Below, in pieces: positions 6,696 to 18,952 of a stretch of DNA of 32,025 bases. The stretch lies in the NCBI RefSeq assembly GCF_000429585.1, contig NZ_AUCD01000019.1:1-32025 (forward strand), written 5' to 3'. Both the position numbers and the translations under genes were made by a program. Position 1 is the first letter of the stretch. Every line of letters begins with the position of its first letter. Source of the stretch: Atopococcus tabaci DSM 17538 (GTDB lineage Bacteria; Bacillota; Bacilli; Lactobacillales; Carnobacteriaceae_A). Under the pieces are notes generated by a model, which searched no databases, was not told the DNA's origin, and saw only the letters and a list, made by a program, of their open reading frames with translations.

Positions 6696-6730
6696 AAACC
6701 CCCTCAGGAATAGTTTCCTGAGGGGGGTTT
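6696..6730. terminator. Bidirectional terminator between the glsB-like gene and csp
   Basis: CCCCCTCAGGAA and its complement form a 12-bp GC-rich stem around a short loop (TAGT), with A-runs on the left and T-runs on the right. It lies 36 bases after the plus-strand gene and a few bases after the stop of the minus-strand gene, so it serves both convergent units. Confidence 0.85.
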
Positions 6731-6735
6731 ATTAA

Positions 6736-6936
6736 TTATAGTTTAACAACGTTTGCTGCTTGAGGACCACGGTTTCCTTCGACAATTTCGAATTCTACTT
6801 CTTGGCCGTCTTCCAAAGATTTGTAGCCTTCGCCTTGAATAGCGCTGAAGTGTACGAATACATCTTCTCCGCCTTCAACTTCGATGAAACCGAAACCTTT
6901 TTCAGCGTTGAACCATTTAACTGTTCCTTTTTCCAT
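6736..6936 (-). CDS. cspA: Cold-shock protein (CSD-fold RNA chaperone)
   Basis: The 66-residue protein is a single cold-shock domain. RNP1 (KGFGFIEV) and RNP2 (VFVHFSAI) are intact, as are W9 and the flanking aromatic residues that stack on single-stranded RNA. The start is the ATG at 6936, with GGAGGGG 9 bases upstream; the in-frame TTG at 6942 is too close to that site. It binds mRNA and single-stranded DNA and melts structure at low temperature or during growth. It has its own strong promoter and a long leader. The exact paralogue letter (A, B, C or D) cannot be fixed from one copy. Confidence 0.95.
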
Positions 6937-7094
6937 TACCAATTACCCCTCCACTTACTAAGTATTGTAACAGACTTGCTTCGGTATTGAACGTGAAGAG
7001 TTGAAGCTTTTCAACTAACTTTTCAACCATTCTTATTACGAAAAACTAAATCTATCACAATTGAAATTATACCGAATCCTCCCTTTTTTTGCAA
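6937..7094 (-). promoter_or_regulatory. csp promoter and long 5' leader
   Basis: Minus strand: -35 TTGCAA (7089-7094), 17-base spacer, -10 TATAAT (7066-7071). Transcription should begin near 7059, leaving about 120 bases of untranslated leader. The leader contains an AGTTGAA/TTCAACT hairpin with an AAGC loop and a second partly complementary GTTGAAAAG copy. Long structured leaders are typical of csp genes, where they make translation temperature-dependent. Confidence 0.75.
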
Positions 7095-7210: not shown

Positions 7211-9994
7211 TTATTCGTCTGCAGCTGTTTCCAGTGCTTCTGGATAGTGTTCCTTCACAATGCTGTAGCATCTTCCGCAAAGAGTTGGAGCTTCTTCAAT
7301 CGTCCCTACTTCTTCGCTGATGATGCGGCATCTCTCGCATGTTTCTCCGTGTTTGTGTTCCACTAACACGGACATACCATCGAATTCCATTGCATTTTCA
7401 GGTGCTTCTGACAATTCTTTGATATCCAATTCAGAAACAATCAATACCTGACGTAAATCGGTATTCATGCTTTCCAACAATTGTTTTGTTGTTTCGTTTG
7501 GATACAAAGTGACTTTTGCTTCAAATGATTTTCCGATTTCCTTCGCATTGCGGGCTACTTCCAGTGCTTTCAATACATAATCACGGAGGACCATGAAGTT
7601 TTCCCATTGTTCGAGAAGAGAGCTGTTGTTTTCAAACGTGCGTACTTCAGGCATTTCAGCCAATTGTACGTACTCTTCTGGTTCTTTCAAATAAGACCAG
7701 ATTTCTTCTGTGGTGTGTGGCAAAATCGGAGTCAACAATTTCGTCAATACAACCACTGCTTCATAGAAGACAGTTTGCATCGCACGACGTTCGTATGCAT
7801 CTTCCGATTCAATGTATACTACATCTTTCGCGAAGTCCAAATAGAAGTTGGATAAATCGGTAATGCAGAAGTTGTTGATGGTTTTGTACACAGTAGAGAA
7901 GTCATATGCTTCATACGCTTGAATGACTTTTTCCGTTGTTTGATACAAGCGATTCATCATATATTTGTCTTCAGAACGCAGATCTTCATAAGAAACGGCA
8001 TGTTTTTCCGGATCAAAGTCTCCAGTGTTGGCCAACAAGAAACGAATCGTGTTACGGATTTTTCTGTATACTTCCGACACTTGGTTGATGATGTCCATGC
8101 TGACACGGACGTCGGACTGGGAGTCTACGCTGGCTACCCAAAGACGGACAATGTCTGCCCCTTTTTGTTTGATGACTTTATTTGGTTCGATCGTATTGCC
8201 GATGGATTTACTCATCTTACGGCCTTCACCGTCTAACACCATTCCTTGTGAAAGAACGGATTTATAGGGTGCGGTGCCGTTGATGGCAACGCTGGTCGTC
8301 AAACTCGAGTTAAACCATCCGCGGTACTGGTCTGATCCCTCCAAGTACATATCAGCAGGGAAAGTCAAGTTTTCTCTTGTTTGCAAAACTGCTTCATGCG
8401 AAGAACCGGAGTCGAACCAAACATCCATGATATCCGTTTCTTTTGTGAACTCACCATTCGGACTGGACGGATGAGTGAATCCTTCCGGCAGCAACTCTTT
8501 CGCTTCGCGCTCAAACCAAACGTTAGAGCCGTGTTCTTTAAATAGTCCCGCTACATGATCGATGGTTTCTGGACTGATGATCGCTTCTCCGTTTTCTCCA
8601 TAGAAAATCGGTAGAGGAACACCCCATGCACGCTGACGAGAAATGACCCAATCTCCTCTGTCTCGAACCATGTTGTAGATGCGCTGCATTCCCCATGGCT
8701 GCAACCATTCAACATTTTCAATTTCTTTCAGGATGTCTTCGCGGAAAGTTTTGATGGACGCAAACCATTGTGGAGTCGCACGGAAAATAACTGGTTTTTT
8801 CGTCCGCCAGTCATGCGGGTAGCTGTGAGTGAAGAAGTCCAATTTCAACAATGCGCCTTTTTCTTCCAACCACTCTGTGATTATTTTATTTGCGTCATCA
8901 TAAAAGACGCCTTCAAGTCCTGGTGCTTCATCGGTGAAGCAGCCTCTTCCGTCTACAGGCGAAAGAACAGGCAATCCATATTTTTGTCCCACGATATAGT
9001 CGTCGTCCCCGTGACCTGGTGCTGTATGAACTAGACCGGTTCCTTCTTCCAACGTGACATAGTCGCCCAACACAAGCAGCGATTCACGATCGTAGAAAGG
9101 ATGCTGCGCAGTCACGTTTTCCAAATCGCTTCCTTTGATTTCTTTCAGTACTTGTACATCTTCCCAACCTAATTTCGCTGCAACTCCTTCAACCATCTTG
9201 GAGGCTACAACGAATTTCCGTCCATCTGCGTTGACCACAGCATAGTCGACATCTGGGTGAACCGCAATCGCTAAGTTGGCCGGAAGGGTCCACGGCGTAG
9301 TCGTCCAAATAACGAAGGAAGCATCAGAATCCACTTTGCCTTTTCCATCCCGTACACCAAACGCCACGTAAATATTTGCTGAACGGACATCTTTATATTC
9401 GATTTCTGCTTCAGCCAATGCTGATTCACTGGAAGGAGACCAGTAGATTGGTTTCAATCCCCGATAGATATAACCCTTTTCAGCCATTTTCCCAAATACA
9501 CGGATTTGAGCTTCTTCGTAGTCTTTTGTCAAAGTGACATATGGGTTATCCCACTCACCAGCCACACCCAGACGTTTAAAGTCTTCGCGTTGTTTGTTGA
9601 TCTGTTCCCAAGCATACTCTTCACATAATTTACGAAATTCCGCTATTGTCATCTCTTTGCGGTTGACACCTTTGTTGGTCAATGCTTGTTCAATCGGCAA
9701 GCCGTGTGTGTCCCATCCCGGTACATAAGGAGAACGGAATCCGCTCATTGATTTGTAACGGACGATGATATCTTTACTGATTTTGTTTAACGCGTGTCCG
9801 ATGTGAATGTTTCCATTGGCAAACGGCGGGCCGTCATGAAGAACAAAGGTAGGTTTGTCTTTGTTTACTTCTTGTCTTTTCTCATAAATTTGTTGCTCTT
9901 CCCATTCTTTTTGACGCTCGACTTCTTTCGTCGGCAGGCTTGCACGCATTGGGAATTTTGTTTTTCCAAGCTGCAACGTTTCTTTCATTTTCAT
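7211..9994 (-). CDS. ileS: Isoleucyl-tRNA synthetase
   Basis: The 927-residue class I synthetase charges tRNA-Ile and edits mischarged valine. HIGH is at 64-67 ([16 protein letters not shown]) and KMSKS lies in [12 protein letters not shown] at about residue 600. The editing (CP1) domain is the region between them, including [10 protein letters not shown]. The C-terminal zinc motif is complete: CERC and CGRC pairs near residues 881 and 905. Length and zinc end match the bacterial Gram-positive type. I chose the ATG at 9994 ([10 protein letters not shown]) because GAAGGAAG lies 8 bases upstream; one further upstream start has no site. It is controlled by a T-box leader. Confidence 0.97.
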
Positions 9995-10039
9995 CCTGTG
10001 CACTTCCTTCGTTTGATTGATTTTTTAATTTTTTGCAAT

Positions 10040-10292
10040 AAAAAAAGACTTCCTCCGCAAGGGACGAAATCTCCGTGGTACCACCCAATTTTAAAAAGAA
10101 GGATGCCTTCTTTTTCTCTGCATCGTTAACGCCGAAGATACGGTTTTGATTACTCATTTCACCAAAACACTCATGGATGATAAAAGACAGAACTTACTTC
10201 ATCAGGCTTCCACCAATCCCTGACTCGCTGACAAGTGATTCTGTCTTTTGCGTTCCACTCAACATTTTATTGTATGAAAACTTTTCGCATAG
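10040..10292 (-). promoter_or_regulatory. T-box riboswitch, Ile specifier, controlling ileS
   Basis: On the minus strand the T-box sequence TTGGGTGGTACCACGGAG lies at 10071-10088. Stem I is visible as AAAAGACAGAA pairing with TTCTGTCTTTT (10182-10192), capped by a distal arm with the usual GATTGGTGGAAGCC segment. Directly after the 3' strand of stem I comes ATC followed by A (10179-10181), which I read as the isoleucine specifier codon. The terminator is the 11-bp hairpin 10046-10056/10062-10072, followed on minus by a T-run. Uncharged tRNA-Ile should pair with ATC and the TGGT of the T-box, allowing read-through into ileS. Confidence 0.93.
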
Positions 10293-16372: not shown

Positions 16373-17464
16373 TTATTCCGTTAAGTCGGTCATCAGGTCG
16401 ATCAGTCGGTCCGCTGCATCAGGAACTCCCGCACGTTTGGCTTTTTCAGCCATGGCGGCTCTCTCCGACGGATTCTGCATCAACCGATCCAATTCCTCAA
16501 TAAAGACTTCGCGTGTCAATTCTTTTTCGGTAATCATCTTTGCAGCGCCTTTATCAGCCAAACTGAGAGCATTTTTTGTCTGGTGGTCATCTGTCACATT
16601 AACGCTGGGAATCAAAATGCTCGGCAGCCCCAAAGCAGTCATTTCTGCAAGAGTTGTTGCACCGCTTCGAGAAACAATCAACGACACACCTGCAAAAACT
16701 TCCGGCATATTGGATATATACGGAACTACTTTTACATTCTCACTTGTCCCGTCAAGTCGAGAAAGGAGTGATTCATAATGAAGTTTGCCGCTGACAAACA
16801 AAACTTGGTATGGTTTTGTTTTCAACTCAGCATAACTGTCCACGAATGTATCATTGATTTTTTGTGCGCCCCTGCTTCCACCGAACATTAGCACCGTTGG
16901 GATGTCCGGATTCAATCCGTATTCTTTCAGGGCGGAATTTTTTCTTACGTGAACAACTTCCTGCGCACGGGGATTGCCTGTGAAGACAACTTTTTCCTTG
17001 TGTCGTCCAAATTGATCCGCGGCTTCTTCAAAGCAGATGGCAATCTTTTTCACGAATGGAGCTAAAAACTTATTCGTCAAGCCGGCGACGCTGTTTTGTT
17101 CATGAATGACCGCCGGGATACCGAGACGGGAGGCTGCATAAACAACCGGCCCGCAGACATAACCCCCAGTTCCCAATACCACATCCGGTTGAAAGTCTTT
17201 GATGATTTTTTTTGCATCTGACGTACTTTTAATAAATTTGCCGATTGTCTTTAAGTTATCCATTGAAAAAGAGCGCCTGAAACCTTGAATTTCAATGGCT
17301 TTGAATGGAACACCATTGTCAGGAACAATCGTACTTTCCAAACCTCTTTCTGTTCCAATGTACAAAAACTCTGTGTCAGGATACTGTTTTTTCATTTCAC
17401 GCATGAGGGCAAGCGCAGGGTAGATGTGTCCTCCTGTACCGCCTCCTGATAGTAATACTTTCAT
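16373..17464 (-). CDS. murG: UDP-GlcNAc:undecaprenyl-PP-MurNAc-pentapeptide transferase MurG
   Basis: The 363-residue peripheral membrane GT-B glycosyltransferase makes lipid II from lipid I. The N-terminal G loop is LSGGGTGGHIYPALAL (residues 5-19). The second G loop is FGGSRGAQKIN near 195. The UDP-GlcNAc pocket includes RSGATTLAEMTALGLPSILIP near 260-285. The start is fixed by the family (MKVLLSGGG), but the only Shine-Dalgarno is 26 bases away, separated by a hairpin. It follows murD, whose stop codon touches that site. Confidence 0.97.
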   Translation of the reverse strand: MKVLLSGGGTGGHIYPALALMREMKKQYPDTEFLYIGTERGLESTIVPDNGVPFKAIEIQGFRRSFSMDNLKTIGKFIKSTSDAKKIIKDFQPDVVLGTGGYVCGPVVYAASRLGIPAVIHEQNSVAGLTNKFLAPFVKKIAICFEEAADQFGRHKEKVVFTGNPRAQEVVHVRKNSALKEYGLNPDIPTVLMFGGSRGAQKINDTFVDSYAELKTKPYQVLFVSGKLHYESLLSRLDGTSENVKVVPYISNMPEVFAGVSLIVSRSGATTLAEMTALGLPSILIPSVNVTDDHQTKNALSLADKGAAKMITEKELTREVFIEELDRLMQNPSERAAMAEKAKRAGVPDAADRLIDLMTDLTE

Positions 17465-17499
17465 GATTGTATAGGCTTCTGGAGCCTATTCCTCCCTTA
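17462..17499 (-). promoter_or_regulatory. murG start region: hairpin between Shine-Dalgarno and ATG
   Basis: On minus, the order is the murD stop TAA (17497-17499), GGGAGG (17491-17496), one base, a 7-bp perfect stem ATAGGCT/AGCCTAT with loop CCAGA (17471-17489), then ACAATC and the ATG at 17464. The linear spacing is 26 bases, too long, but folding the hairpin leaves 7 bases, which is optimal. Confidence 0.7.
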
Positions 17500-18870
17500 T
17501 TGTGGTTTATGAACAAGTTTATTGACGCTTTCAATAAACGCGTCGCCTCTTTTTTCAAAACTATCATACTGATCCCAACTTGCACATGCAGGTGAGAAAA
17601 GAATCACGTCGCCGCTCTCACTCACTTCAAACGCTTCTGGGACGGAAGCTGTGACATCCGCAACTTTCCGTATGGTCTTCACTCCTGCTTTTTCGCCTGC
17701 TTTTATAAGAGTTGATGCGGTTTCGCCAAAAACAATCATGGCTTTAACATGTTCTTTCAACACTGGCACCAGATCTTCAAATGTTTGGCCGCGGTCCAAC
17801 CCCCCGGCAAGCAGTACAATCGGTTGGTTGAACCCTTGCAATGCTTGGATAGTGGCCAATGTATTGGTTGCTTTGGAATCATTGTATACTTTGCGATTTT
17901 CGTGTTCCAAGACAAACTGCATCCGATGCTTGACCCCACTGAAGCGGCTTAAGCAGTCTTGAATTTGTTTGTTTGTTTTTCCCAGCAGTTTGGCCGCCGC
18001 AATTGCAGCCAGAGCATTTTCCAGATTGTGTTCTCCAGGCAAGGCCACATCTTCCCGTTCCATCACAGGCTCATTACGGAAGTAAATGGTCCCATCCAAT
18101 ACGTATACACCATTTTCCATCCGTTCATGCCGGGAGAATGGAACCAACTGAGCGGGTGATTCTTCCGACAATTTTCTTAATTCAGGAAGATCCCAATTGT
18201 AAATAAACCAGTCCGTTTCTTTTTGGTTTTTTGTGATGTTCATTTTTGCCTGCACATATTCTTCGCGCGAAGAATGATAGTCCAGATGGGCCGAATAAAT
18301 GTTTGTGAAAACAGCAATGGACGGTCGGAAATGTTGGGTTCCCATCAACTGAAAACTGGACATTTCCATAATCAATTCATCTTCAGAAGTCACTTTTTGG
18401 ACAACCTCACTGGCGGGAAACCCGATGTTCCCTGCCGCGAAAGCTTTTCCCTTTTTCCGATCCGTGTTCATTACTTCTGTAAGCATCATAGTAGTTGTTG
18501 TTTTTCCGTTTGTCCCCGTAATCGCTACGAGAGTTCCCTCACAAACTTCGTAAGCTAATTCCATATCAGTCAAGATAGGGATTTTTTGGGCCAGTGCTTT
18601 TTCTATTATTGGATTATCATATCGAATGCCGGGGTTTTTTATCAGGAAATCGATTTTTTCATCTAACAGGTTTTCTGGATGTCCTCCGGATACGACATTG
18701 ATGCCGAGTTCTTCTAACTCTTGTGCATCAGGGTCATCTGACAAATCTTTGGCGTCATTCACTGTCACTTTGGCTCCAAGTCGATGCAATAAAAGTGCGG
18801 CATTTTTCCCGCTTCTTGCCAAACCTAAAACCAATATATTTTTTTCTTCGTACTTTTCCGTTTTTTTCAT
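17497..18870 (-). CDS. murD: UDP-N-acetylmuramoyl-L-alanine:D-glutamate ligase MurD
   Basis: The 457-residue cytoplasmic Mur ligase adds D-glutamate to UDP-MurNAc-L-Ala. The Rossmann-like N-terminal domain shows LVLGLARSGKNAALLLHRLG (residues 13-32). The ATP P-loop is GTNGKTTT at 119-126. The C-terminal domain has YNDSKATNTLATIQALQ and LLAGGLDRG, typical of MurD. The ATG at 18870 has AAAGGGCG 5 bases upstream; a 13-codon upstream extension has no site. It follows mraY by 82 bases. Confidence 0.97.
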   Translation of the reverse strand: MKKTEKYEEKNILVLGLARSGKNAALLLHRLGAKVTVNDAKDLSDDPDAQELEELGINVVSGGHPENLLDEKIDFLIKNPGIRYDNPIIEKALAQKIPILTDMELAYEVCEGTLVAITGTNGKTTTTMMLTEVMNTDRKKGKAFAAGNIGFPASEVVQKVTSEDELIMEMSSFQLMGTQHFRPSIAVFTNIYSAHLDYHSSREEYVQAKMNITKNQKETDWFIYNWDLPELRKLSEESPAQLVPFSRHERMENGVYVLDGTIYFRNEPVMEREDVALPGEHNLENALAAIAAAKLLGKTNKQIQDCLSRFSGVKHRMQFVLEHENRKVYNDSKATNTLATIQALQGFNQPIVLLAGGLDRGQTFEDLVPVLKEHVKAMIVFGETASTLIKAGEKAGVKTIRKVADVTASVPEAFEVSESGDVILFSPACASWDQYDSFEKRGDAFIESVNKLVHKPQ

Positions 18871-18952
18871 GGTTACGCCCTTTCTATTTGCGTATCTTTC
18901 TATGTACAACGAAGCCGGACACGGTTAACAACCGTCCCCAGCATCCAAGTCA

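Follow-up and report, generated by a model that had tools for sequence, protein, structure and literature searches.

The murG gene of the window (the whole stretch of DNA analysed here, 32,025 nucleotides long) is probably translated from a split, or accommodated, ribosome-binding site, of the kind found in genes 25 and 38 of phage T4. A strong Shine-Dalgarno (SD) sequence lies too far from the start codon, and a hairpin in the spacer would bring the two to a usable distance. The same anatomy is present at murG in 12 genera, where the long spacing is always accompanied by a hairpin, the stem is conserved within lineages, and some of its base pairs covary. The split murG site is best read as a character inherited over a wide bacterial clade.

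The murD-murG junction

The window covers 32 kb of a genome of 2.27 Mb in 139 contigs. Its minus strand carries a cell-wall and division cluster, identified with NCBIfam as a PBP2X/SpoVD-like gene, mraY, murD, murG, ftsA and ftsZ. The features of the junction are as follows.

17497..18909, minus strand: murD (NCBIfam TIGR01087, E = 8.6e-131, and the list of open reading frames), with its stop codon TAA at 17499-17497
16373..17464, minus strand: murG (NCBIfam TIGR01133, E = 6e-101), with its start codon ATG at 17464-17462
17491..17496, minus strand: GGGAGG, the SD of murG (from the sequence), 26 nt (17490-17465) from the ATG
17471..17489, minus strand: spacer hairpin (from folding; 52 other murG junctions are built in the same way)
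17465..17470, minus strand: six-nt linker between hairpin and start codon (from the sequence; 50 of 53 junctions have a linker of 6-10 nt)

In minus-strand order the junction reads TAA, GGGAGG, A, ATAGGCT-CCAGA-AGCCTAT, ACAATC, ATG. The stem is a perfect 7 bp, in which ATAGGCT (17489-17483) pairs with AGCCTAT (17477-17471) around the loop CCAGA (17482-17478), and the spacer outside the 19-nt hairpin amounts to 1 + 6 = 7 nt. This confirms, on the minus strand, the arrangement described in the first-pass annotation, namely GGGAGG directly after the murD stop and 26 nt before the murG ATG, with a perfect 7-bp hairpin using 19 of these nucleotides.

The distance between SD and AUG is as a rule some 5-9 nt. 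In the window, the SD at 26 nt has a strength of -13.9 against the 16S tail, and the best site at 3-13 nt from the ATG reaches -6.4. The ATG is taken to be the proper start of murG, because the protein begins with MKVLLSGGGTGGH, at the same residue as in relatives with ordinary spacing, and because an in-frame TAG (17488-17486) shuts the murG frame upstream of it. The same TAG rules out an upstream start that would make the hairpin coding. RNA thermometers are SD-sequestering hairpins at the translation start; the SD of the window murG lies outside and 5' of the stem, so that the junction is not of this type, and one fold of the 38-nt stretch weakly pairs two SD bases.

On the window sequence alone, the case for a hairpin beyond chance is modest. 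The 26-nt spacer by itself folds with -8.3 kcal/mol, which is matched by none of 1000 mononucleotide shuffles, while the 38-nt stretch has a z score of -1.63, with 11 of 200 dinucleotide shuffles folding equally well, and stretches of 81 and 101 nt adopt other folds. The claim therefore rests on comparison with relatives. In six contexts whose end lies between +9 and +20 the stem is predicted with a probability of 1.0, but when the RNA extends to +40 the value falls to 0.09 or 0.12. The lower value belongs to the context from -60 to +40, in which the fold containing the stem has -14.4 against a minimum of -17.7, a cost of 3.3 kcal/mol; competition from murG codons past +20 keeps the hairpin from being the minimum-energy fold there. 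These long-range partners could be displaced by ribosomes translating murD and by others at the start of murG. In the same -60 to +40 context, the stem probability is at least 0.5 in 37 of the 53 long-spaced junctions described below.

Two further stretches of the window's minus strand were recognized by Rfam families. The first, 10057-10271, is a T-box leader (RF00230, 103 bits) just upstream of a 930-aa minus-strand ORF at 7211-10003. The second, 6696-7047, matches the cspA thermoregulator family RF01766 with 84.6 bits (gathering threshold 78), and may be a leader belonging to a small cold-shock gene.

Survey of murG junctions

murG was sought in 27 genomes of the window's family (coded f1), 18 of f2, 76 of f5, and 295 genomes drawn evenly from the order. 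The window's genus is represented by the window genome alone. Junctions were read in 161 genomes including the window, comprising 27 of 27 from f1, 18 of 18 from f2, 71 of 76 from f5 (four genomes with a distant murG and one fragment were left out), and 45 from f3, f6, f7, f8 and f9; the latter are 45 of the 46 junctions fetched among the matches listed, the start of L236 being unreadable. In family f4 murG was matched only at about 1e-30, and this family was left out of the junction reading. Trichococcus paludicola and T. collinsii (L033, L034) have a murG junction of the type seen in genus g38, from which we infer that g38 is probably Trichococcus and the surveyed order probably Lactobacillales.

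The long-spaced set was limited to f1, f2 and f5 and defined by a strong SD 20-39 nt upstream of murG. It contains 53 of the 161 junctions, from 12 genera: 20 of 27 in f1, 17 of 18 in f2, and 16 of 71 in f5. Within f5 the arrangement occurs in all 13 members of g38 and in three of six of g58, and in none of the 52 from the remaining genera. The distant SD is the strongest SD of each junction, with values from -10.7 to -17.1.

All 53 long-spaced junctions, which have 50 different spacers, carry a hairpin in the spacer, with stems of 4-12 bp. The raw distance from SD to ATG is 27.0 nt on average (sd 3.6), and with the hairpin folded away it becomes 9.8 nt (sd 1.9, range 3-14 nt). A stem of at least 4 bp that leaves 7-13 nt is present in 50 of the 53, compared to 32% of shuffled spacers. 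The linker from stem to AUG, 6-10 nt long in all but three cases, is exactly 7 nt in 24. The earlier proposal that the hairpin folds an over-long SD spacer down to a usable distance is thus well supported by the comparison.

In 100 of the remaining 108 junctions the best SD is no more than 14 nt from the start (mean 7.0, sd 2.0). The eight exceptions are all from f8 or f9 and have weak SDs (-6.4 to -10.0). Three of these eight (L225, L252 and L253) pass the SD rule apart from its limit to f1, f2 and f5, at -9.9 to -10.0, but have no hairpin, and each has another SD (-6.3 to -9.2) at normal distance. Where the long spacing is lacking in f1, f2 and g58 (11 junctions), there is always a close SD, 4-10 nt upstream of the start and with a value of -9.2 or better.

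Some of the long-spaced junctions have further signals within the spacer. A second SD (-9.7), in or at the 3' arm and 9-10 nt from the AUG, is present in five of the 53. In-frame start-like codons occur between SD and ATG in 17, at inconsistent positions, and in 12 of these they are within two codons of the ATG. An in-frame AUG lies directly on the SD in L148 and L150, and 13 nt from the SD in L153, where it may conceivably serve as the start instead of the murG ATG.

One of the 11 junctions of f1, f2 and g58 that lack the long spacing, L133 (G057, f2, genus g25), has GAGGAGG followed by a hairpin in the last 40 nt before murG. Its close SD, AGAGGTG, 8 nt from the ATG, is inside the 3' arm of the predicted hairpin. 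This junction may be an intermediate between a split and an ordinary site.

The spacing state was placed on a MurG tree of 81 full-length proteins, made up of all 53 long-spaced cases and 28 of the 108 others. Eight changes are needed, of which seven are forced by starred branches; the mean for shuffled states is 23.6. A single origin of the split site is not supported by this tree, and the changes may be gains or losses.

Conservation and covariation of the stem

Spacers fold better than their shuffles with p < 0.05 in 37 of the 53 long-spaced junctions, and the 12 genus medians combined by Fisher's method give 8e-15. When only the 27 nt before the AUG are folded, p < 0.05 is reached by 30 of 53 long-spaced junctions against eight of 108 others, and the mean fold energy is -6.1 against -0.9.

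A stem that is not conserved in relatives was named in the first-pass annotation as the finding that would count against it. Within lineages we find the opposite, stems being more conserved than loops and flanks. The column identity of stem, loop and 3' flank is 1.00, 0.53 and 0.56 in genus g3, 0.94, 0.64 and 0.64 in f2, and 0.94, 0.86 and 0.88 in g38. Between genera the stems vary, with 27 different 5' arms among the 53 junctions.

The annotation had also proposed looking for stem covariation, and here the outcome differs between lineages. It is found in g38 (12 of 13 rows aligned, 10 distinct), where two pairs have changed on both sides, giving a score reached by none of 500 shuffles, and where one stem pair is U-A, A-U or G-C in different species. 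It is weak in f2 (14 of 17 rows; three g22 hairpins were excluded as not alignable), where one pair has changed on both sides and the score is equalled by 25 of 500 shuffles, so that the signal is only weakly beyond shuffles. It is absent from g3 (12 of 12 rows), where the stem never varies and therefore gives no information for or against pairing. The invariant g3 stem, GCAC/GTGC, is shared by 12 species (L010, L012-L014, L016, L019, L023-L026, L112 and L113) whose loops and flanks have diverged. On this comparative evidence, the spacer hairpin at murG is a real and conserved feature.

Control starts

Other starts were surveyed in two ways. At the same 53 loci, 41 of the 52 murD starts located have an SD of -9 or better at 3-13 nt, as do 49 of the 51 starts located for the next gene; at the other 11 murD starts the SD in this interval reaches -8.6. 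The second survey took 697 ORFs (120 aa or longer) from parts of four genomes, 373 of them from the window genome, 114 from G008, 93 from G033 and 117 from G089. Loose criteria for a split site picked out the murG of all four genomes and, of the 693 remaining ORFs, three. In both surveys the choice of start favours an ordinary SD and a simple ORF rule was used with no gene caller, so split sites at other genes can be missed. Two of the three non-murG matches (L287:10938 and L258:7984) have imperfect hairpins, and in the third (L273:17558) the SD is itself part of a long palindrome.

The palindrome of L273 (G089, genus g38) occupies 17515-17549. It is near-perfect, GGGAGGGCGAAAGAT...ATCTTTCGTCCCTCC, and stands directly before the start of a 457-aa ORF (MMKVSGEAMF...). 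As its sequence places the SD inside the stem, it is a predicted SD-sequestering structure, unlike the murG type.

Proposed mechanism and alternatives

The murG junctions have the features of a split site. The SD is too far away (at 26 nt in the window and at 20-39 nt in the set of 53), the hairpin is wholly between SD and AUG, and it is retained together with the long spacing in 53 of 53 cases in f1, f2 and f5. In the proposed mechanism, the 30S subunit would pair with GGGAGG via its anti-SD, while the hairpin between SD and AUG would stay folded and bulge out of the path. About 7 unpaired nt would be left between SD and AUG in the window (7-13 nt in 50 of 53), and therefore the AUG could reach the P site. 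The hairpin would be folded during initiation, and translation would need it.

Coupling to murD may matter as well, in that ribosomes terminating on murD would begin again at the murG AUG close by, with the hairpin gating or tuning this step. The first-pass annotation suggested a role of this kind, in which ribosomes that end murD would cover the site and the hairpin might set the murD:murG ratio. In the 53 cases the murD stop precedes the murG AUG by 9-48 nt (the value of 48, in L016, is doubtful). The distance from the stop to the beginning of the stem is at most 12 nt in 50 of 53, close enough for a terminating ribosome to disturb the hairpin. The position of the stop, however, varies, being before the SD core in nine junctions, between SD and stem in eight, and inside the hairpin in 36; no fixed gating geometry is therefore conserved. 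A strong SD is moreover retained in all 53 (-10.7 to -17.1). We regard coupling as a tentative suggestion, which does not exclude the split site. Rather speculative is the wider proposal that the split site is a stable, selectable character at an essential gene, with a hairpin that is rebuilt repeatedly and acts as a gate worked by murD-terminating ribosomes, setting the supply of MurG from the translation of MurD.

Hairpins between the genes of an operon are often terminators, RNase sites or protein-binding sites. Such roles are frequent enough in general that the murG hairpin might act at the RNA or DNA level, the long spacer being incidental, and two g3 junctions do have GUUUUUU after the stem. 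T-rich tails follow the stem in only three of 53 junctions, however, the stems differ between genera, with 27 different 5' arms, and the hairpin sits between SD and AUG, with little hairpin signal at normal spacing (the eight of 108 noted above). There is also no Rfam match: a covariance-model search of window positions 17300-17700 gave none up to E = 1. We consider this explanation unlikely. An intrinsic terminator in particular is not supported, since a terminator scan found none at the site and a T-rich tail is present in only three of 53 junctions. A phage origin was considered as well, but comparison of 1701 bases around the junction with phage records gave no near-identity match.

A local rival concerns genus g3, where a mini-ORF starting 9-14 nt after the SD, with a stop overlapping or near the murG AUG, could feed ribosomes to murG, the stem being a by-product of a GUG in the 3' arm. 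A GUG frame is indeed present in 11 of 12 g3 junctions, ending in 10 with a UGA that overlaps the AUG and in one with a UAA immediately upstream of the AUG; the GCAC/GUGC stem does not vary in this genus, although its flanks do. Such a frame is found in only four of the other 41 junctions, of which the window is not one, and it leaves the conserved 5' arm unexplained. We consider this explanation improbable. Chance, in the form of a palindrome that arose at random in a gap behind a decoy SD, could be argued from the 11 of 200 shuffles of the window's 38-nt stretch. It is hardly credible, given that every one of the 53 long-spaced junctions in f1, f2 and f5 has a hairpin and given the conservation of the stem and its covariation.

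If the split reading of the murG site is true, the rule for the distance from SD to AUG concerns space on the ribosome and not a count of nucleotides. The 53 natural bacterial sites at one gene, with stems of 4-12 bp and spacings of 20-39 nt raw and about 10 nt folded, form a series for measuring this rule. Gene finders and RBS calculators can score such starts as having no SD.

Comparison with known systems

In full-text searches of open-licence papers, a scope outside which most subscription papers fall, we found no description of a split site at a bacterial chromosomal gene; the only split sites that came up are those of T4 genes 25 and 38 (PMC3014915). According to the account given in that paper, the distance from SD to AUG is reduced from 22 to 5 nt by an intervening structure in gene 38, and from 27 to 11 nt by a hairpin in gene 25 (PMC3014915, citing Nivinskas 1999; Malys and Nivinskas 2009). 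In both genes initiation falls when the structure is destabilized by mutation, and the gene 25 hairpin is shared by close relatives but lacking in more distant ones (PMC3014915). A different result is described for the intercistronic start of the pvuII operon, where no significant effect was seen when hairpins predicted to occlude the SD were disrupted (PMC2997769).

By analogy, the mechanism suggested for murG is one known in kind from phage T4. As in gene 25, the SD is distant and would be brought near by a hairpin at an intercistronic junction. Gene 25 is a phage gene with proof from reporters and DMS, whereas murG is a chromosomal cell-wall gene whose site is known from sequence and prediction; unlike the gene 25 site as described, it spans genera with a changing hairpin. 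Gene 38 is similar in that a structure between SD and AUG shortens the spacing, but it is again a phage gene, and its folded spacing is shorter than that of murG. The SD-sequestering hairpins described for phage homing endonuclease genes are also found at the translation start, but there the SD is within the structure and initiation is reduced (PMC3014915), whereas at murG the SD is outside the stem.
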